From the NCBI RefSeq assembly GCF_003667275.1, contig NZ_RCNV01000001.1, positions 124,001 to 188,000 on the forward strand: a DNA stretch of 64,000 nucleotides. Reading direction: 5' to 3'. The position numbers and the translations under genes were made by a program. The notes under the pieces are model-generated. The model saw only the letters and a program-made list of their open reading frames with translations. It was not told the DNA's origin and made no database searches. Positions within the stretch are counted from its first letter, which is position 1. Each line of letters opens with the position of its first letter. Shown here piece by piece: positions 36,069 to 46,020 of the stretch. Source of the stretch: Mesonia aquimarina. GTDB lineage: Bacteria > Bacteroidota > Bacteroidia > Flavobacteriales > Flavobacteriaceae.

Positions 36069-39000
36069 CTATTTGGATTTTAAGTAATAACGTAGTCCGA
36101 GTTGAAAATTATTAGAATAAAAATTCTTTAACGTATAAAATTCGGCATTTCCAGTGAGATAAAAATAGGGGAGTACTGGGTAATTTATTTCACCTCTAAA
36201 ACGTTGAAAACTTTCAGAAAAAGTATCTAAAAAAGTTGCTGCACCTAAGCTGAATTTTAGTTCAGATTTAGGATCTATATACATATAATCTAAACCGATA
36301 CCGCCATATAAACGCTCTTTGATTGTCCAATACGGATAACCATCTTCACGATTATCGCTTCCTAACATTCCTGAAATTTCTGTGTATGGAAGAAGTGTTG
36401 ATTGCTGCTGAATTTTGAAACCATAGCCTATATTAGCAAGCAGCATTCCATCAATAACATCATCGCTATAATAATTGGTTTCTAAATTTAAAATTCCGCG
36501 CCAGTGTTTATCGAACTGCATTTCTTCATAGATATTAAGCTGCGTTTGATAAATATCTAAGGTATATGCCGGACCTGTGATTGCAGGTCTTATAAGTAGT
36601 TGAACAGAATTAAATAGACTGTCTTTTGCAAAAGAAACATTGGTTTGTAGATGAAAGAAGGCTTTAGAAGCTTCATTAAATTCTACTCTTGCAAGACCTC
36701 CATAATTCAGCTTTTCGTTGCGTTCTTTCCGGTTAAATGTATATTCAACTCCATATAAATTTTGATCTATATTATTGGTGTAGTTTTGATCGATCTGAAG
36801 CGCATAAGCTTTATATTGTGTAAGACCGAATGTATGTGTATTGGCAGCATTGTCGCGAATACCGTAGCCCACTTTATTGCCGAGTGAAGTCGGTTGTAAG
36901 CGATCTGCAATCATCGAACTTTTAGTTTCAATAAAATCATTGGTATTGACACGTGATTTTTTTTGAATGTCTTCCGAAATTTTTTCATCAATTAATTCGG
37001 GGAAATCTTGTACTATTTTTTCTTGTATATCAATTTCCGTGTAGATAATTTCTTTATTGATTTTTTCTTTCAAATCATTTTTTTCCTTTCCCTTGGGAAG
37101 GGATGTAGTAAGTTCAGCTGAATTGTATAGGTTGTCAGAATACAAATATATCTCGGCTAAAGTTGCTTTTAATTCTTCAGGATTTTTGGCAGTCGCTATA
37201 TTTTCATCATAAACTTTTTGTACATTTTCAAGATCTTGCAATTCATAATACCAAAGTATTTTATCTTTTACCGGAAAGTTTTCTGCACAATTAGACCAAG
37301 CAAGCGCTTTTCGGTAAGTTCCTTGATCGCCAAAGGCATAAGCAATAGAATAAGCTTGTTTTACTAAATCTTTATTTTTACAAGGCGTTTCATTAATTAA
37401 TTCTTGCGTAACTATTAGAGGCTTATGTTCTAATAAATAACTGATATAACGCGAGTAATTTTCCTCTTTTAAAAACTTATATTCTCCTAATTGAATGCGC
37501 CATTCTTCTTTTGTTTCTTTGGGAATTGTATTAACGCAGTTTGACCACTTTACGGCTTCTTTATAATTTTCTTTATCGGCGTAAATCCATATAATATCAG
37601 TAATTAACTCTTCGGTTAAAAAATTAGAGCAAGGTTGAAGCGTATCTACAATTTGCAGTGCTTTTTCTTGATTTGAATATAAAATAGTTGCAAAATAAGT
37701 CGCTTTATCGTCTTTATTTTCAGTATTCTGAAGTAATTGTAATTGCTGTGTTGTGCTTAGTTTTGAATTATCAATTGGCTGAAAATGTTGATCGTATTGT
37801 TGTTTAAGTTCAATATTATCGGGATTAAATTTTATTTCCCGTTCAAGCCATTTTTTTTCTATGGCTTCAGTTGGATAAAAACTTTCTTGTGCAATAACTT
37901 TAGAAAGTGCTACAATTTCTGTTGATGGATTTTGCGTATACTTTTTTTCAAGTATGGGCCAAATTTCATCGTTTCTACTTTCCCAACCTAAATATTTATT
38001 GAGCTCTCTTATTTGCTTTTGATCTGTATTTTTTTCCTGATTTATTTCTTGTTTTAGAACTGCAATTGCTTTATCTACTTTTTCTTCAGCGATATAATGA
38101 TTAATTTTTTCTCGATTGTTTTCAAAAACTAAGCTATCTTTTGTGTAATTTTTGTAGTCTTCAAGAACACTTTGCACCGCTGTATTTTCTTTATCTTCTA
38201 AAAAAAGTGGAATTTCAATTTTATTCTCTGAGGTGTTGACAGTAAAAAGATAGCCTTGAAGCAATTCAGTTTTAGAAAATTTCCATTGTTTTTTTTCTAA
38301 ATATGTTTCCAACTCTTTTTGGTGTTCTTTAGCAATATAAGTAAACCAAGATTGTTGTTCATCAATTTTTTGATTGCCTGTAACCTGATAAAATTTTTCT
38401 TTTTGTTGGTGTTTATACGACGTATTTCTCCATTTTTCTGTTATTTCTGCTCCTTCTTTAACCGAATAAAAATTCATTAAAGGAAATCTAGCTTTGGTTT
38501 CTTGCAAATAGGTTTGAAAGCGAGGTAATAATCCTGGAGAACCATCTTTAGAAATACGCCAACCTAAATCTAATTTATTTCTAAATTCATAATTTCCGGC
38601 ACTTAATTTATTGCTTTCATCAGCAACTTGATAAACATCATCGGGATGTAAAAAATGGGTCCAAATACCGGTGTATAAATAGAGTGATTGCTGATTGAAT
38701 TCTTCGGCATCATCAAAAACGTAACCACTTGTAATTCTGGGAAAATTAAAGAAATGATCGTTAAAAGGTTCCGGATCAAATTCTCTGGCGCCACCTTCTT
38801 CAAAATCACCCATATAAATGCTGCAGTTGTATCTAAGACTAGGCATTCCTTCTTCTAAAGCAGCCAGACCTAAGCTATCTATAATATTGCTTGGCGGAAC
38901 ATAGGTTATGGGTAATTTACCATAGCGTCCGGCTTTCCACTTTTTTCTTGCTGATTTTAAAGCACTCACCATAAAAGCTTTATTAGGCCATTCTTCTTTG

Positions 39001-40091
39001 GTTAAGGAAACGTGATTGTAGCCGTGTAAATCTAAATCGTGTTTACTTTTTCTAACTTCTCGTGCTAACCAACCCGATTGAGCTTGTTCCTTTTCCTCTT
39101 TTATAAACGTATTGCTTTCCCATTCTTTAAATAAAAATGGCGGATCGGTTAAATTTCTATAATCAAAGCATAAATACGTAGAGTAGATTAAGTTTTCATC
39201 TTCAGCCAATTGAAGCATATCTGGCCACCAGACTTCTCTGTAATATTCACTTTGAGTGATGTTCATTTCAGATTTAATATTTTCCTTTTTGATGTTATAC
39301 ATCGGTGCGGGAAAATCATCTAAAAATATTGTACTTACATTGGCTACCGGATAAGGGACACCTTCTAAACCGGCTAAAATGGCTGAAAAAAATAAACCGC
39401 GGTCTTCCTTTTCTGCATATTGTGTGGTGTTAAAGGCAATAACTTTTCCCTTACCAAGATTATTTTTTATGATGAGGGGAAAGCTCTTGTCTGTAAAACT
39501 TGTAGCCCAAATATCTACTCGGTTTGAAAAGTTATTCTCAGTAAGACCATAATGAGGAACTTTATTTTGATAAGGTCTTTCTTTAAAATTGGGTAAGTAA
39601 GGAATATTAAAAAAATAACCTTGCGGCTCTTGCGTTACTGCATAGTCCGCATTTTGTTTAATTCCACTTAAAAACCCAAAACGTTTATTTTCAGTAGTAT
39701 TGGGTAAAAACAAGGTCCCACCCGAAGCTACAAATTGCACCACACTCTCCATGGCTTTGTTACTTAAGGGTTTTAAATCGTAGATTACTACAACTCGGGA
39801 AGTTTTAGGTATTTTAGCATCTTGATTAAAGTTTTCGAGGCTAATTTTTCCGAAAGGTATTTTGGCGTAATCTAATGCTTTCCGAATTTGTTTATTACAC
39901 GTAATGCTTTGCGGATTTTGATTATTTACCAAATAGGTAACTAGCGGATTTTCGCTAACAGGATCAAAAACAACACGATCTATACTTTCGGGCTCTAATA
40001 TTTTGCCATCGTCTTCTTGACAAGAAATTGAGCACATCACTATAAAAAAACAACTTAGTATTTTAAATAAAATAGCTGTAAAATGTTTCAT
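36069..40091 (-). CDS. Pel-type polysaccharide deacetylase fused to helical scaffold and beta-barrel
   Basis: A 1340-residue outer-membrane protein, last gene of the Pel-like operon. Signal peptide and lipobox (SISC, C24, followed by QEDD) suggest a lipoprotein. Residues about 30-590 resemble the PelA deacetylase/DUF2194 region: DD258-259 in IFLDDFPAP, H356-x3-H360 in HGYNH and H482 in FLHPDD match the metal and catalytic pattern of carbohydrate deacetylases. About 600-1010 is an all-helical, TPR-like region with repeated KxxxxWSNC units, like the PelB periplasmic scaffold. About 1040-1340 alternates strands rich in Tyr, Asn and Gly ending GLRYYLKSK, a likely export barrel. So deacetylation and export seem combined in one chain. 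Domain limits are by eye; the fusion is a direct reading of one open frame. Confidence 0.75.
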   Translation of the reverse strand: MKHFTAILFKILSCFFIVMCSISCQEDDGKILEPESIDRVVFDPVSENPLVTYLVNNQNPQSITCNKQIRKALDYAKIPFGKISLENFNQDAKIPKTSRVVVIYDLKPLSNKAMESVVQFVASGGTLFLPNTTENKRFGFLSGIKQNADYAVTQEPQGYFFNIPYLPNFKERPYQNKVPHYGLTENNFSNRVDIWATSFTDKSFPLIIKNNLGKGKVIAFNTTQYAEKEDRGLFFSAILAGLEGVPYPVANVSTIFLDDFPAPMYNIKKENIKSEMNITQSEYYREVWWPDMLQLAEDENLIYSTYLCFDYRNLTDPPFLFKEWESNTFIKEEKEQAQSGWLAREVRKSKHDLDLHGYNHVSLTKEEWPNKAFMVSALKSARKKWKAGRYGKLPITYVPPSNIIDSLGLAALEEGMPSLRYNCSIYMGDFEEGGAREFDPEPFNDHFFNFPRITSGYVFDDAEEFNQQSLYLYTGIWTHFLHPDDVYQVADESNKLSAGNYEFRNKLDLGWRISKDGSPGLLPRFQTYLQETKARFPLMNFYSVKEGAEITEKWRNTSYKHQQKEKFYQVTGNQKIDEQQSWFTYIAKEHQKELETYLEKKQWKFSKTELLQGYLFTVNTSENKIEIPLFLEDKENTAVQSVLEDYKNYTKDSLVFENNREKINHYIAEEKVDKAIAVLKQEINQEKNTDQKQIRELNKYLGWESRNDEIWPILEKKYTQNPSTEIVALSKVIAQESFYPTEAIEKKWLEREIKFNPDNIELKQQYDQHFQPIDNSKLSTTQQLQLLQNTENKDDKATYFATILYSNQEKALQIVDTLQPCSNFLTEELITDIIWIYADKENYKEAVKWSNCVNTIPKETKEEWRIQLGEYKFLKEENYSRYISYLLEHKPLIVTQELINETPCKNKDLVKQAYSIAYAFGDQGTYRKALAWSNCAENFPVKDKILWYYELQDLENVQKVYDENIATAKNPEELKATLAEIYLYSDNLYNSAELTTSLPKGKEKNDLKEKINKEIIYTEIDIQEKIVQDFPELIDEKISEDIQKKSRVNTNDFIETKSSMIADRLQPTSLGNKVGYGIRDNAANTHTFGLTQYKAYALQIDQNYTNNIDQNLYGVEYTFNRKERNEKLNYGGLARVEFNEASKAFFHLQTNVSFAKDSLFNSVQLLIRPAITGPAYTLDIYQTQLNIYEEMQFDKHWRGILNLETNYYSDDVIDGMLLANIGYGFKIQQQSTLLPYTEISGMLGSDNREDGYPYWTIKERLYGGIGLDYMYIDPKSELKFSLGAATFLDTFSESFQRFRGEINYPVLPYFYLTGNAEFYTLKNFYSNNFQLGLRYYLKSK

Positions 40092-40095
40092 TTAA

Positions 40096-42096
40096 CTAGA
40101 ATAATAATTCTTTAATTTTACTTTGCTTCGGAACGTTTACTATTTCATAAACTTTAACCAAACTACCTTGATAAAATACGTTTACTCGGCGTCCTTTGGA
40201 TTTTAAAATATCTATATTTTTCTTAGCTCGATCTTGAATATTTGGATTCAGTTTTGTTTTTTTTCCTAAACTAGCTTCATTCTCATACAAAAATACAAAA
40301 GTGCTTTTAGGTAAAACTGCATCAGGATTTCTTTTGAAATAATCCTGTACGTTTCTAAACGAATTATAAATAGAGTCTTTTTTAATATAGTTTTTATTGA
40401 AATAATTGTAATTGATAAAGTAATGACTGTCTTCGCTAATAACACTATTATTTTGCGTATTGACAACTGCGTAAGAATAGGGCAGGTGCTTAGAATTTAA
40501 TTTATCGTAAGCCTCCATTATTGGTTCTTTGGTTTCGTTCTTTTTAAACGGAATTTTTTCAGTTTCCGCTTTTCCTATCCAAATAAAAAGGCTACAAATA
40601 ACTATAGTACTCAGTATTGCTTCAAATGAAAAATTCCATTTAAAGTTTAATGAAAAAAGTTCTAATATTCCAACGAATAAAAAGAGTGAAATTCCAAAAA
40701 GTAAAGGTATAAAAACAGCTGCGGTAATATTTAAAAGATCTTCATCTACAATTAAATATTCGATCTTATAAGCCTGTAAAAATATACTTAGAAAAATGGC
40801 AATTGCTAAGGCACCATTATATTTTTTGGGATATTTAAGGTATAATGGAATTGCAACTACAACACAAGCTAAACTTGCCCATTGGTAATAATTCAGTAAT
40901 TGATCAAACGGTAAAATTAATTGTGGTAAATAGGTGTAAGACGTATAATTATATAGGTTGGAATTAATAAACTGAATTAAATCATAATTCAGTACCCAAG
41001 CAGCAATCAAGTGAATTAAAAAAGTAAAACTTAACGCAATTAAATAAGCTAATAAAGATCGGTATAAATAGCGTTTATTTCGTTTGAGATTTAAAATTGA
41101 AATCAATAACACAAAAGGAAAAACAATAAAAAGGGCTACAAACAAATCGGTAAAAATAATAGCAGCATATAAGTATGACATCCAACGTAAATAGGTTGAA
41201 GTATTCTTTCTAAGGCTGGTTGGTTTTATGTTGTACATTATTGCTGGAAGCCCTAAAATAAGCGCAAAAAATATAGATTTGTGTTGTGTAATTAAATTAA
41301 TATTTAAAGGTAAAAGAGGATATAATAAGGTAAAAGATAAGGCTGCAATTAAGGCTGGTACTAATTTTTTTGAGGTTAATTTATAGGTAAACCAAAATAA
41401 AATAACGGCGAGTAATGAAGATTCAAGTAAGCCAAAAGATGCTAAAGCAATGGTATCTGTAATACCGGTTAACTCTCCGTAAACATTCATAATTAAATAT
41501 TCGCCCATCATGCTTCCTTCATGAAAAAACCAATGTTGGTTGGTTAAGTCTTTTATCTTATGAAGATCGCTGTACCAAATATCAGAAAGGGTAAAAGTAT
41601 CAAAATTGAAAAAATAGTAACGAGATGCAAAGCATAACAAAGCTATAAAAACAGCTAAGCCAATTTGCCATTTTAAATCGATAGCGGTGAGTCTTTCTTG
41701 TTCTGTTTTTGTAGAGTCTATCCGCTTTTTTAAATTGTATTTACTGACTAATTTTTTTTCTTTCTCAAAATTTCTAACCGTATAAATAATTAGTCTTTTA
41801 CGCATTTTAAGAAATTGGTGGGTAAAATTTTTCTTAGAATTTAAGTTCAGAAAAACTAAAATCATAAACCCGGCTAGAACACTTAGACACACCAATAAAT
41901 CGAAGGCATTAAGCTGTGTAAGTAGCATGCTTACCAGCATAATAACCGAAATAAACATAACAAAACGTGCTATAAAATAATCTAATCCCCGTTGATTTGA
42001 GTCTTTAAATGAGATTAATTGTTTTATAACGTAGATAAAAAAGACAAATAAAACTATGCGTAACGGCCCAATAAACATCGAAGAAATATAGTCCAT
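40096..42096 (-). CDS. Polytopic membrane protein of the Pel-like operon
   Basis: A 666-residue inner-membrane protein with about 13 hydrophobic helices: three near the N terminus, a cytosolic Lys-rich loop (about 90-145), a further ten or so helices to about residue 510, and a soluble C-terminal domain of about 150 residues. The first outside loop after helix four carries DIWYSDLHKI, acidic residues placed as in GT-C glycosyltransferases, but similarity is too weak to assign. It occupies the position where proteobacterial operons have PelD/PelE, yet shows no GAF or GGDEF domain. It lies 4 nt from genes on both sides, so membership in the system is likely. Confidence 0.65.
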   Translation of the reverse strand: MDYISSMFIGPLRIVLFVFFIYVIKQLISFKDSNQRGLDYFIARFVMFISVIMLVSMLLTQLNAFDLLVCLSVLAGFMILVFLNLNSKKNFTHQFLKMRKRLIIYTVRNFEKEKKLVSKYNLKKRIDSTKTEQERLTAIDLKWQIGLAVFIALLCFASRYYFFNFDTFTLSDIWYSDLHKIKDLTNQHWFFHEGSMMGEYLIMNVYGELTGITDTIALASFGLLESSLLAVILFWFTYKLTSKKLVPALIAALSFTLLYPLLPLNINLITQHKSIFFALILGLPAIMYNIKPTSLRKNTSTYLRWMSYLYAAIIFTDLFVALFIVFPFVLLISILNLKRNKRYLYRSLLAYLIALSFTFLIHLIAAWVLNYDLIQFINSNLYNYTSYTYLPQLILPFDQLLNYYQWASLACVVVAIPLYLKYPKKYNGALAIAIFLSIFLQAYKIEYLIVDEDLLNITAAVFIPLLFGISLFLFVGILELFSLNFKWNFSFEAILSTIVICSLFIWIGKAETEKIPFKKNETKEPIMEAYDKLNSKHLPYSYAVVNTQNNSVISEDSHYFINYNYFNKNYIKKDSIYNSFRNVQDYFKRNPDAVLPKSTFVFLYENEASLGKKTKLNPNIQDRAKKNIDILKSKGRRVNVFYQGSLVKVYEIVNVPKQSKIKELLF

Positions 42097-42100
42097 AATT

Positions 42101-42904
42101 CTATTTGAATGTTGGTAAATTTTGCAAATCTATCTGACCGATAAAATAAGGCCAATTTTTTTGTTTAATTCTTTTTAAAATACTCTTTTTCATTTTTTTT
42201 GTTCCGGCATATTCAATAAAAATAATTGGAAGTTGATAATTTGTGTGAATTGTTTCCAATTCATCGAGTTGTTCTTTAAACTCTTTTTTTGCGCGTAATC
42301 TATATTTGTTTTTATCGAAGTTATAATTACTGGCAACAGATTCTATCGCAATAGCATCAATATAATTATGCGTATCTTCCGCTATTAACAAACCGGCATT
42401 TTGCATTAAAAATATATCAGGAAATTTTTGCTTTACTTTTTGTAAAAAAATTACTAATTCAAATTTATTTTCAGGAGTTGGTCCGTATTTAGTATAATTA
42501 TCAATATTATCTAAAAACATTCCGTCTAATCCTTTTTCTTGCTTATTCAACCAAAATAAATCCAATAAAGTTTCTTGTGTTATTTCATCTCTTAAATTTA
42601 GAATGTGACTGTTCCACAATTTATTTTCACCCAAAGTTTTACCTTCTAGCTTTTCATAATGAATGGCAGCTTCATTAACTTCACCCAAACTTATATAGCC
42701 TAAAACGTATTTATTATTTTCTTTTAAGGTTTTTACATCTGCTTTAGAAAAATGAGTTCCTTCAATAATAACGTAAGTATAGCCTTTTACCTGTTCCGGA
42801 TAAAAGTCACCATAACAAAATAATACGGGTTGTTTAGGTTGTTGCGCAAAAAGCTTGAAACTAAAAAAAAGCATAGCAATAAAAAGTAGTTTAATAAGCC
42901 GCAT
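42101..42904 (-). CDS. Secreted GH114/PelA-type glycoside hydrolase
   Basis: A 267-residue periplasmic or secreted protein. Signal peptide to about residue 20 (FKLFAQQ), then a TIM-barrel resembling the endo-alpha-1,4-polygalactosaminidase family and the N-terminal hydrolase domain of PelA: LGYISLGEVNEA, GLDGMFLDNIDNY (D127, D132), FLMQNAG and AIAIESVASNY (E188, candidate acid/base). It would cut galactosaminogalactan- or Pel-like polymer. In Pseudomonas PelA the hydrolase and deacetylase are one protein; here they are separate genes. It overlaps the PelG-like gene by 14 nt. Confidence 0.8.
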   Translation of the reverse strand: MRLIKLLFIAMLFFSFKLFAQQPKQPVLFCYGDFYPEQVKGYTYVIIEGTHFSKADVKTLKENNKYVLGYISLGEVNEAAIHYEKLEGKTLGENKLWNSHILNLRDEITQETLLDLFWLNKQEKGLDGMFLDNIDNYTKYGPTPENKFELVIFLQKVKQKFPDIFLMQNAGLLIAEDTHNYIDAIAIESVASNYNFDKNKYRLRAKKEFKEQLDELETIHTNYQLPIIFIEYAGTKKMKKSILKRIKQKNWPYFIGQIDLQNLPTFK

Positions 42905-44501
42905 AATAAAAATAATCTAATCGTTTAAAAAAACGAATGGTTAAACGTGTGGTATAAGCCATAAAGAAAAATGCACCAACTAACAGCCCAATAGCACTAT
43001 ATTCATAAGAAATTATACGGCTACAAAGTACGCCGATTCCCACATTTACAAAGCAAGCTAAAATAAGTGCTGTTAATGGTTTTTTATGCTGATTTAAGGT
43101 GTACATATATAAAACATTCAGCATTCCTAAAGTTAAAAACAAATATCCAAAACCGCCAATTACAGAAACCTCTATACTTAAGGCTGAAAGAGATTCATCA
43201 AATCCGGCTTTATAGCCCCAAGGTTTTGTAATTACTGCATACAATAAAATTCCTATTAAAATGGCACTTCCCGTAAATAAACCTAAATGTTTATAATACA
43301 TTTGAAGCATTTTTTTATTGAAGTTTTCTAATTTGTGGTAAGCTATAGTTCGTTGATAATAATCCATTTTCCTACAAAACGAAGCAATGCTGTATTCTAA
43401 AACCCCTGCGAGTAAGAAAAATACAAGAATTGCTAAATCCATACCAATCTCATAATCTTTTTCATAATAAACAATATAGGGTAAATTTCTATCTAAAGTA
43501 GAAGACCAGGCCAAAATTCTATCGGTAAACACAAATAAAAAAATTAATGTTCCATAGAAAAAATAGTCGAAATTTCTGTAAACCGAAAGCATCATTTTTG
43601 GAGTTACATTATTTCTTCCTTTATCTTTTTTAATGGTACGTTTAAAGAAAAAATGTAGATAAGCCAATGCCAAGATGCTTGCCAAAACAATTCCGCCCCA
43701 GTGAATATAATAGACTTTAATATTGGTAAATAAATGTACGGCTAAGGCACTTGAGGTTGCTATAAAAATAACCAATGATATTGCCCAACGTTCTTTTATA
43801 GTATATAAAGAGGATAACGAGAGTAATAAAATACTGATTAACAAAGCATAACTAAATACAATTCCTAAAAATAAAAATGGATAGAGGTGTAAGAAAAAAT
43901 TGATGCCGGTAATGACGAGAAAAATCCCAAAAATAAGTTTAATACCGGTTTTTAAAATATTGATAACAGATTTTCGCGTCATCTCGTAGTCTTGATTATA
44001 CCAATAATAAGAAACTTGTTTTCCCATTACTTGTACAAAACCACCGGTGGTTACCAAACCAATGATCACCCCTAAAACTACCGCAGTAGATTGCAAACCG
44101 TTAAAGCCAGAAAAGGTCCATAACGAAAAACCAAAAAAGACAATACAAGCGATTTGAATAAATACCGGAAATGTGTGAAAAATTCCTGTACTGTATTCTT
44201 TTACAAATAAAACTTTTCTAGCAATAGTATAATTATTAACCGATATTTTTTGAAATTCTTTTTGTTCGGCTTCTAATTGCTTTTTATTTTTTAATTCAGG
44301 AAGTTTAGCATGGCCAATTTCATCAAAAATGTGATGAGCTATAGTTTCTATAGATTCAAATCCGTAATCTTCAGGAACATCGATATCTCGAATTCCTAAA
44401 GATTCTATGGTGGCCATAACCACTTGAACATTAACGGGTTTTCCGTTACGTTCTTTTATCATCCTTATTAATTCAACTAAAGCTTCTTGATGATTATTCA
44501 T
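42891..44501 (-). CDS. pelG: PelG-type exopolysaccharide transporter with N-terminal extension
   Basis: A 536-residue inner-membrane protein with about 12 helices starting near residue 108 and the PelG-like segments GGFVQVMGKQVSYYWY and SVIGGFGYLFLTLGMLNVLYMY. PelG is the MATE-like transporter that, with PelF, moves the growing polymer across the inner membrane. The protein is about 80 residues longer than Pseudomonas PelG; the extra part is a soluble N-terminal region of about 100 residues with charged helices (MNNHQEALVELIRMIKERNG). Start ATG 44501 overlaps the end of pelF by 8 nt, which argues that the extension is really translated. Confidence 0.88.
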   Translation of the reverse strand: MNNHQEALVELIRMIKERNGKPVNVQVVMATIESLGIRDIDVPEDYGFESIETIAHHIFDEIGHAKLPELKNKKQLEAEQKEFQKISVNNYTIARKVLFVKEYSTGIFHTFPVFIQIACIVFFGFSLWTFSGFNGLQSTAVVLGVIIGLVTTGGFVQVMGKQVSYYWYNQDYEMTRKSVINILKTGIKLIFGIFLVITGINFFLHLYPFLFLGIVFSYALLISILLLSLSSLYTIKERWAISLVIFIATSSALAVHLFTNIKVYYIHWGGIVLASILALAYLHFFFKRTIKKDKGRNNVTPKMMLSVYRNFDYFFYGTLIFLFVFTDRILAWSSTLDRNLPYIVYYEKDYEIGMDLAILVFFLLAGVLEYSIASFCRKMDYYQRTIAYHKLENFNKKMLQMYYKHLGLFTGSAILIGILLYAVITKPWGYKAGFDESLSALSIEVSVIGGFGYLFLTLGMLNVLYMYTLNQHKKPLTALILACFVNVGIGVLCSRIISYEYSAIGLLVGAFFFMAYTTRLTIRFFKRLDYFYYAAY

Positions 44502-46020
44502 AACTAACTTTAGTTTGCTGCATTGCTTTCAATTTGTTTTTTTGTGAATTTACCCGTTCATAGGCATCTTCATAATCACCAATAAAATTTGCTAATGTGA
44601 AATTTTCTACAACACGTTTTCTGGCGTGTTCACCCATTTTTTTTCGTAAGTCATCATCCTTCAAAAGTTTTATGACAGCTTTTCCAATTTGTTCTGCATC
44701 TTTTGGTTTACAAGAAATTCCTGAAAATTCATCTAAGGCTTCTTTTACGCCACCAACATCTGTAGCAACTACAGGAACACCGCAACCCATCGACTCTAAA
44801 ACAGTGTATGGAAAGCCTTCAGAAATAGAGGTTAATATAGAAATATCACCTTCGGGAAAAATTAAATGCGGATTAGGCCGTGGCCCCATCAATTTAAAAT
44901 TCTCTTCTAAGCTTAATTCTTTAATTAGGTCTAAGCATTCGGCGGTATATTCGGGTACAGCTTTGTCATCACCATAAATTAAATATTGAACATTTGGTAT
45001 TTCTTTTTTTACCACTGCGCAAGATTTAATCATGGTTAGTACGTCTTTCAATTCAAAAATTCTTGCAGCTGCAACTACTGTAGGAATATTTTTTAAATGC
45101 TCGGGTTTTTCTCTGGGTTTAAATAATTTATGATCTATCCCATTATAAATTATTTGTAATTTATCAGGCGAAGCTCCGTAAGATTTCTCCCATTTTTTAT
45201 TGAATTCATTTACAGAAATAATTGAAGCGGCTTTGTAATAAGTCAATCTTGCCACGGCTTCAGAAAAACGAATCAATAAATCTTTTAAAAAGAAGGGGTA
45301 TTCTGAATTGTTTATAGCTAATAAACGTTCTCTAATAAAAACGCCATGTTCGGTTAGCATAATAGCAGTACCGTGTTTGTAATGCGCAATTAATGCTGGG
45401 ATTAAGGGAAAACCACTAAGCGTTAAGTGTGCTATATCTACTTTTGGCACATCTACAATAGCTAAAGGAATTAAAAAGCGATACAACCAACGCAAACCGA
45501 CAGTTAAATCTAAAATACTGGCAGTTGGATTGTGTTTTCTTTCAATATAATCTGAAACAATTTTTACATAGGTATCCCACACAATTTTTTCGCGCATGGT
45601 TTCTTTATAATCAAAGTCTTCAAAATAAAGCCAAAGTCTATAGAAAACATCATCTAAAGCTTCTACATTTTTTTCATCATTATAAACTAAATGAAGTAAT
45701 CGCTCAAAAATCGGAATAAATTTTTCAGCAATAATCTTAGATGTGGTAAACTCTTTTCTACCTACCGTTTTGTAATATTCATCGCCATAACTCGTATAAT
45801 CATGAGGTTCATCTGGCGTCCATAACGGTACCTGTAGTACTTTTTTTATATTTTCTCCCAGTTCGTAACGCGGTTCTAATTCAAAACCAGCATTTATAGA
45901 ATAGAGGGTGTAATTTGCGTTACTTACTTGATTACATAATATATGCGACCACGTAGAAACTCCGCCACCATTAAATGGATAAGTTCCTTCTGTGATAAGC
46001 ATCACTTCAATTTTTTTCAT
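44494..46020 (-). CDS. pelF: PelF-type glycosyltransferase
   Basis: PelF is the cytosolic GT4-family synthase of Pel polysaccharide, using UDP-GlcNAc/GalNAc. The 508-residue protein carries the family hallmarks: LITEGTYPFNGGGVSTW at the N terminus, LTEHGVFIRER in the middle, and E401-x7-E409 in SEGFPYTVLESM followed by GCGVPVVATDVGGVKEAL. Length matches PelF. It is the first gene of a five-gene minus-strand operon. About 128 nt separate it from the divergent DEAD-box helicase gene; TATATTTA on minus is a one-mismatch -7 box. Confidence 0.9.
   Translation of the reverse strand: MKKIEVMLITEGTYPFNGGGVSTWSHILCNQVSNANYTLYSINAGFELEPRYELGENIKKVLQVPLWTPDEPHDYTSYGDEYYKTVGRKEFTTSKIIAEKFIPIFERLLHLVYNDEKNVEALDDVFYRLWLYFEDFDYKETMREKIVWDTYVKIVSDYIERKHNPTASILDLTVGLRWLYRFLIPLAIVDVPKVDIAHLTLSGFPLIPALIAHYKHGTAIMLTEHGVFIRERLLAINNSEYPFFLKDLLIRFSEAVARLTYYKAASIISVNEFNKKWEKSYGASPDKLQIIYNGIDHKLFKPREKPEHLKNIPTVVAAARIFELKDVLTMIKSCAVVKKEIPNVQYLIYGDDKAVPEYTAECLDLIKELSLEENFKLMGPRPNPHLIFPEGDISILTSISEGFPYTVLESMGCGVPVVATDVGGVKEALDEFSGISCKPKDAEQIGKAVIKLLKDDDLRKKMGEHARKRVVENFTLANFIGDYEDAYERVNSQKNKLKAMQQTKVSYE

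Follow-up and report, generated by a model that had tools for sequence, protein, structure and literature searches.

How a periplasmic deacetylase is coupled to the pore that exports its product has been considered for the Pel system of Pseudomonas, where the way in which the interaction between PelA and PelB coordinates deacetylation with export is stated to be unclear (PMC12022489, accessible text). A gene of Mesonia aquimarina raises the question of whether a single polypeptide can hold both functions. It lies in a stretch of 64,000 nucleotides (contig NZ_RCNV01000001.1, positions 124,001 to 188,000), hereafter the window, for which an initial annotation had proposed a fusion of a carbohydrate deacetylase, a TPR-like scaffold and a beta-barrel. 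So far as prediction reaches, it is supported that one chain unites a deacetylase of Pel type with a TPR-like scaffold and a barrel for export, and the gene very probably specifies a protein that, as a single chain, modifies and exports a Pel-like amino-sugar polymer. The computation supports the gene order, the homology, the identity of the active site, the predicted folds and the conservation of the fusion.

A single uninterrupted frame at 36069-40091 had been correctly recognized in the initial annotation, which gave no strand. The frame is on the minus strand, where it is intact and open over 1340 codons starting at ATG; the plus-strand reading is ruled out by 88 stops. Its parts are listed below, with conservation counted over 75 aligned proteins (the window protein and 74 relatives).

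36069..40091, minus strand: fusion gene, 1340 amino acids (signal, CBM114-like domain, CE26-like de-N-acetylase, beta-rich domain, TPR-like superhelix, 16-stranded barrel)
40020..40091, minus strand: signal peptide with a lipobox ending in Cys24, residues 1-24 (from the sequence; cysteine conserved in 73/75)
39342..39959, minus strand: alpha/beta/alpha domain similar to CBM114 of PelADA, residues 45-250, approximate limits (9ZAU homology, model, fold comparison)
38472..39341, minus strand: carbohydrate esterase domain, residues 251-540, approximate limits (DUF2194, 9ZAU homology, model, fold comparison)
39315..39320, minus strand: D258-D259, motif of catalytic base and metal ligand (each 74/75)
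39012..39026, minus strand: H356-x3-H360, zinc ligands (each 74/75)
38736..38738, minus strand: R452, equivalent of the base-coordinating R458 of PelADA (74/75)
38637..38648, minus strand: H482-P-D-D485, catalytic acid and equivalent of PelADA D491 (H482 and D485 each 74/75)
38208..38471, minus strand: predicted beta-rich domain after the esterase, residues 541-628, approximate limits (model; likened to the PelADA architecture)
36942..38183, minus strand: predicted TPR-like helical superhelix of 27 helices, residues 637-1050 (model; Pfam TPRs in a divergent homologue from genome G647)
36084..36935, minus strand: predicted 16-stranded barrel, residues 1053-1336 (model, fold comparison)
36561..36575, minus strand: predicted five-residue helix between strands 7 and 8, residues 1173-1177 (model; position matches Plug-I of PelB, on weak evidence)

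The only Pfam match of the fusion above cut-off is DUF2194 (residues 54-589, 237 bits, E 3.7e-70), with DUF2334 as a weak second match below cut-off. Among solved structures, PDB entry 9ZAU stands out, with E-values of 3.3e-41 for the single sequence and 2.6e-62 for a profile. According to the accessible part of its description, 9ZAU is PelADA of Bacillus cereus, a zinc de-N-acetylase of alpha-1,4-N-acetylgalactosamine (GalNAc) oligomers that founded the families CE26 and CBM114, with D262 as base, D263, H350 and H354 as zinc ligands, and H488 as acid (PMC13254593). The two proteins share 113 identical residues among 417 aligned pairs. PelADA residues D262, D263, H350, H354, P404, P405, R458, H488, and D491 are all identical in the fusion, where their equivalents are D258, D259, H356, H360, P399, P400, R452, H482, and D485. 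The residue numbers of the initial annotation were thus correct (D258-D259, H356/H360, and H482 align with D262-D263, H350/H354, and H488), and its motifs cluster in one active site, as each residue maps to its counterpart in the zinc site seen in the PelADA crystal structure. At eight of these positions (D258, D259, H356, H360, P400, R452, H482, and D485), 74 of the 75 proteins keep the residue, and the sole exception is always the same relative, L099.

The AlphaFold2 model of this half, built from a 54-row alignment (the window protein and 53 of the 74 relatives), has a predicted local distance difference test score (pLDDT) of 91.4 and a predicted template modelling score (pTM) of 0.91. When compared by VIA-align, it matched a putative peptidoglycan deacetylase (Z 18.9), Agd3 (6nwz; Z 15.8, 499 residues, root-mean-square deviation 6.2) and PelA of P. 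thermotolerans (9cgy; Z 15.2, 447 residues, root-mean-square deviation 8.2). 9ZAU was not among the matches listed in the fold searches of the model, and its presence in that structure library was not checked. The fused deacetylase resembles the Gram-positive PelADA (CE26); assignment to the type found in Pseudomonas PelA (CE21) is not supported. In the exceptional relative, which is full-length (L099:8983-12897), neither the base nor the zinc ligands nor the acid are kept, and the other four operon genes were not found in the flanks; it looks like a pseudoenzyme in which scaffold and barrel have been retained.

For the C-terminal half, a helical middle and a strand-rich C terminus had been noted from the sequence, and the AlphaFold2 model (72 rows, the window protein and 71 of the 74 relatives; mean pLDDT 90.5, pTM 0.60) agrees, with 27 helices predicted at residues 637-1050 followed by 16 strands at 1053-1336. 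The top five Foldseek matches of this model are all polysaccharide exporters: BcsC three times, 4y25, which we take to be PgaA (the entry is titled polysaccharide outer membrane secretin), and PelB. In VIA-align, PgaA 4y25 (Z 22.6, 270 residues, 3.3 Å), BcsC 6tzk (Z 22.6, 294 residues, 3.5 Å) and PelB 9h80 (Z 21.5, 322 residues, 4.7 Å) were matched, and the next barrel was OmpG, with a Z of 14.9. The 16 predicted strands match those of closed 16-stranded exporters from the first strand through the last, which argues for a closed barrel. Independent support for the TPR-barrel class comes from the divergent G647 homologue, in which Pfam finds DUF2194, TPR families at significant scores and, below the cut-off of 27 bits, a weak match to PgaA_barrel (16.1 bits, E 0.0064).

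In the accessible text on the cryo-electron microscopy structure of PelB, the barrel has 16 strands, of which 7 and 8 flank a short helix called Plug-I, and a variable Plug-O is at the loop between strands 11 and 12 (PMC12141448). The five-residue helix predicted at 1173-1177 sits at the place of Plug-I, a small agreement that is not decisive. In the loop between strands 11 and 12 of the fusion, the motif G-Y-P-Y-W (residues 1251-1255) is strongly conserved among the 75 proteins (G in 73, first Y in 48 with F in 21, P in 75, second Y in 72, and W in 70) and is a possible sugar-binding lid.

The fusion is the last gene of a compact minus-strand run that encodes, in order, PelF, PelG, a hydrolase, a membrane protein of 666 amino acids and the fusion itself; adjacent genes overlap by 8 and 14 bases or stand 4 bases apart. 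The four other genes are as follows.

44494..46020, minus strand: PelF glycosyltransferase (NCBIfam PelF, 173.9 bits, cut-off 100)
42891..44501, minus strand: PelG exporter, 536 amino acids (PF16933, 37.6 bits, cut-off 29, E 1.6e-09)
42101..42904, minus strand: secreted glycoside hydrolase similar to the PelA hydrolase domain (GH114 in Pfam; PDB 5TCB, PelA, E 3.3e-15)
40096..42096, minus strand: polytopic membrane protein, 666 amino acids, no assigned family (conserved in the operon)

PelG had no NCBIfam match at E 0.1. About 106 residues precede its first hydrophobic segment, which starts at residue 107, and its Pfam match begins at residue 111. In the hydrolase, E188 aligns with the glutamate at which 5TCB and 5TSY are not the same and is conserved in 72 of 72 sequences. 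The 666-residue protein has 14 hydrophobic windows in a simple scan, some of them overlapping, and a soluble C-terminal part. It is present in 77 of the 80 related loci described below; no Pfam family matched it above cut-off, a profile search gave no solved structure, and across its family the one Pfam match was DUF7314 (E 0.00065), in 1 of 28 members. It is a candidate replacement for PelD/PelE. None of the five genes encodes a small PelC-like lipoprotein.

Proteins with the same domain order are found widely, both among related loci and in Bacteroidota genomes. A contig scan with the single sequence matched 19 stretches, none of them a relative; an eight-row alignment found 290 relatives. 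From these, the 80 best matches to the whole fused query were retained, a set that favours the fused form. An open reading frame of more than 1250 amino acids occurs in 74 of the 80 loci, so the fusion is not due to chance or to an assembly artefact. The blastp alignment reaches at least query residue 1335 for 71 of these 74 frames; for the remaining three it ends at 883-884 despite frames of 1304-1330 amino acids. Among the six loci without a long frame, five are cut by contig ends (L062, L067, L082, L089, and L094) and one, L096 (Aquimarina sp.), is split into two frames. The order and orientation of the five genes are complete in 68 of the 80 loci; of the remaining 12, 11 are cut upstream by a contig end and the twelfth is L099. 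Two further copies are interrupted, both presumably from Mesonia profundi: L006 has a stop near the N terminus, and the frame of L074 begins at query residue 78. These two and L096 are either decayed genes or sequencing errors.

A search of 395 Bacteroidota genomes with DUF2194 only, which is free of the bias of a fused query, gave the same answer. At E 0.001, 46 genomes matched, 28 of them above cut-off; in 27 of the 28, the match is long (at least 347 of 582 positions) and lies in a frame of 1268-1349 amino acids. The 28th, G603, has a match of 95 positions (30.8 bits) in a 696-residue frame, and the other 18 matches are short and below cut-off. PelF was above cut-off in 27 of the 395 genomes, a set identical to that of the 27 with long DUF2194; only the curated cut-off was used for PelF, as a search at E 0.001 matches general glycosyltransferases in 394 of the 395. 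The flanks were examined in 19 genomes (18 of the 27, and G388). Hidden Markov models (HMMs) of the enzyme, TPR and barrel parts matched one frame in 18 of the 19, and the remaining one, G647, was resolved by Pfam. The five genes stand in order in 17 of the 19, often with an extra gene-sized gap between PelG and the hydrolase; of the other two, one has the hydrolase in two frames and G647 has no hydrolase match in the stretch. In Bacteroidota, the fusion is the rule wherever a long DUF2194 is found. Fusobacteriota, which have an outer membrane, show the unfused state in another phylum: there, DUF2194 is a separate protein of 609-621 amino acids beside PelF.

Additional genes accompany some clusters. 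At deeper Bacteroidota loci, the cluster holds extra regulators: an HD_5 protein between PelG and the hydrolase (L133:4115-5737), and SpoIIE+GAF and GAF+HD_5 proteins (L132:5962-9538). A second PelF-like glycosyltransferase of about 395-430 amino acids is encoded directly upstream of PelF in L135, L136, L137, L141, L142, L144, L148, and L149. The Fusobacteriota clusters L130 and L131 are on records labelled plasmid, of 0.7 and 2.1 Mb, respectively; at its size, the second record may be a chromosome with the wrong label.

PelD binds cyclic dimeric GMP (c-di-GMP) in the described Pel systems (PMC7112168, accessible text). No GGDEF match was found in the window genome by a search that matched in 8 of 14 control genomes. 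Among 32 carriers, a GGDEF domain was detected in three (G460, G464, and G647) and not in the other 29. Because of these two points, the Bacteroidota version of Pel probably runs without c-di-GMP in most carriers. The PelD_GGDEF model also found nothing in the window genome, which is no proof of absence since the controls gave no match either.

These elements can be assembled into a putative pathway. PelF would polymerise the chain in the cytoplasm and PelG would move it across the inner membrane. The CBM114/CE26-like module would take the emerging chain in the periplasm, where its zinc site would remove N-acetyl groups. The chain, now cationic, would pass along the anionic TPR-like superhelix into the 16-stranded barrel and out of the cell, and the separate PelA-like hydrolase would trim chains that stray off this path. 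The net charge is -18 for the TPR part (residues 636-1048), -13 for the esterase and only -4 for the barrel, a pattern broadly fitting a chain that turns cationic. In this way the fusion would fix the modification step at the pore. We tentatively extend this to a minimal five-gene Pel machine of Bacteroidota that would need neither c-di-GMP nor PelD nor a PelC ring. In such a machine, a single polypeptide may capture the chain leaving PelG, deacetylate it and conduct it across the periplasm and the outer membrane, and the 666-residue protein may replace PelD/PelE as the control point.

The position of the N terminus bears on how such a protein would be arranged. The initial annotation had called a lipobox, and C24 does close a lipoprotein-type signal (the motif was judged by eye). 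Its view of the protein as lipidated stands as a common trait that is not universal: the lipobox cysteine occurs in 73 of the 75 close relatives, the exceptions being L053 and the N-terminally incomplete L074, and a lipobox-like cysteine occurs in 14 of the 19 fused proteins of the wider Bacteroidota set. Lipidation is therefore widespread, yet not part of the definition of the fused protein. Lipidated outer membrane pores have precedents in OprM and CsgG. Acidic residues occupy positions +4 to +6 after the cysteine in 29, 38, and 33 of the 73 sequences, and no uniform surface-export motif was found behind it among them. In Bacteroidota, such a cysteine is more readily read as a signal for sorting to the outer membrane; this speaks against a trans-envelope bridge, in which the N terminus would sit at the inner membrane near PelG, held by a lipid or signal anchor, and the chain would span the periplasm to its own barrel, and no single anchor fits all, given the 5 of 19 wider-set proteins without a lipobox-like cysteine. 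The bridge is nevertheless conceivable, if somewhat doubtful. The 27 helices and the enzyme module would make a long rod in the models; in the accessible texts, PelADA is proposed to contact PelG through its N-terminal helix (PMC13254593), and PelB has an N-terminal apolar segment without a cleavage site that may bridge both membranes (PMC12141448). The bridge and its rival, a fold-back with the lipid in the outer membrane and the enzyme beside the pore, differ in topology and are both compatible with a single-chain modification-and-export protein.

Several points weigh against the reading as a Pel-type modification-and-export protein. The evidence is computational throughout, and from it we infer enzyme activity, the identity of the polymer, the direction of transport and any advantage of being fused. 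The active site is missing from one relative, L099. Foldseek matches of the enzyme model are headed by GH42 and ThuA-like domains; they reflect a shared alpha/beta domain, and a glycosidase reading of this half is ruled out by the esterase motifs and the 9ZAU homology. Counterparts of PelC, PelD and PelE were not identified among the five listed genes of the operon, and no PelC or PelE model was searched. The pTM of 0.60 leaves the orientation of TPR part to barrel uncertain. The C-terminal half has no sequence-level match to PelB, PgaA or BcsC, so that fold comparison is the sole link: solved structures searched with a profile yielded repeat proteins, chance matches and no exporter, and a Pfam scan of ten barrel segments gave nothing meaningful. 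The three exporters are also nearly tied by Z, and a PelB origin is unsupported. For both reasons, we assign the C-terminal half to the polysaccharide-exporter class by predicted fold and do not claim descent from PelB.

Where PelADA has the sugar contacts E115, W147, and D231, the fusion has D105, F138, and E227, and it has T in place of R140; the barrel is as near to PgaA as to PelB, and the substrate assignment is a prediction. The same machine might thus handle another hexosamine, such as N-acetylglucosamine (GlcNAc) or a mixed polymer, and be Pel-like in mechanism and not in product. We consider this rather unlikely, as PelF, PelG, the PelA-type hydrolase and the PelADA-type deacetylase are all of the alpha-1,4-GalNAc pathway, and the three replaced contacts retain their acidic or aromatic character. 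In Bacteroidota, a glycoside hydrolase and a deacetylase beside an outer membrane barrel are also a common utilisation layout, in which the barrel would take up a foreign amino-sugar polymer for the two enzymes to break down. Such an import function is highly improbable and was rejected, since the operon also encodes the PelF glycosyltransferase and the PelG exporter and the TPR-barrel is of exporter class.

In the accessible open-access literature, no description of the fusion or of Bacteroidota Pel operons was found, subscription papers being mostly outside this scope. The string "Bacteroid" appears nowhere in the main text of PMC13254593, PMC12022489, PMC12141448, PMC7112194, and PMC7112168, and the fusion is not described in the accessible parts of PMC8305213 and PMC9012183. 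The latter reports pelADEFG genes from candidate phylum KSB1, a phylum that it assigns to the Fibrobacteres-Chlorobi-Bacteroidetes superphylum or to a position next to it (PMC9012183, accessible text). The Mesonia operon and its relatives would add Bacteroidota to the phyla with Pel-type biofilm systems, give DUF2194 a likely function in Bacteroidota, and suggest Pel control without c-di-GMP. In addition, a natural single-chain version makes the coupling of deacetylation and export testable by cutting or lengthening the linker.

Compared with known systems, the fusion combines features that are otherwise found apart. PgaA, for poly-N-acetylglucosamine, and BcsC, for cellulose, are the best fold matches of the C-terminal half, but they have no detected sequence relation to it and are pores separate from the deacetylase PgaB (PMC12022489, accessible text). 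PelADA of B. cereus has the same N-terminal module, with homology along residues 52-488 and identical mapped catalytic and zinc residues; however, it has 610 residues, crosses the membrane of its Gram-positive cell once, and is described with three domains and no TPR or barrel (PMC13254593, accessible text). In Fusobacteriota, the PelF, PelG, hydrolase and DUF2194 genes are likewise clustered (Cetobacterium somerae, L130), whereas DUF2194 is a separate protein (609 amino acids in C. somerae, 621 in Fusobacterium vincentii) and the TPR and barrel HMMs match nothing there. The principle of an enzyme-pore fusion is already known from Zymomonas, in which the periplasmic polysaccharide enzyme BcsZ is fused to the outer membrane pore BcsC (PMC7112194, accessible text); that enzyme is a hydrolase of the cellulose pathway and not a deacetylase, and in the literature searched, the joining of a deacetylase to a pore within a Pel-type operon is new. 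The closest parallel in layout is PelA-PelB-PelC of Pseudomonas, with a deacetylase that acts beside a TPR scaffold leading into a 16-stranded barrel and, in PelB, the helix between strands 7 and 8. In Pseudomonas, PelA interacts with PelB as a protein of its own and unites a hydrolase with a CE21 deacetylase (PMC12022489, accessible text). In Mesonia, by contrast, the PelA-like hydrolase has its own gene, and deacetylase and pore form one covalent chain, a fusion that would substitute for the docking of PelA to PelB.

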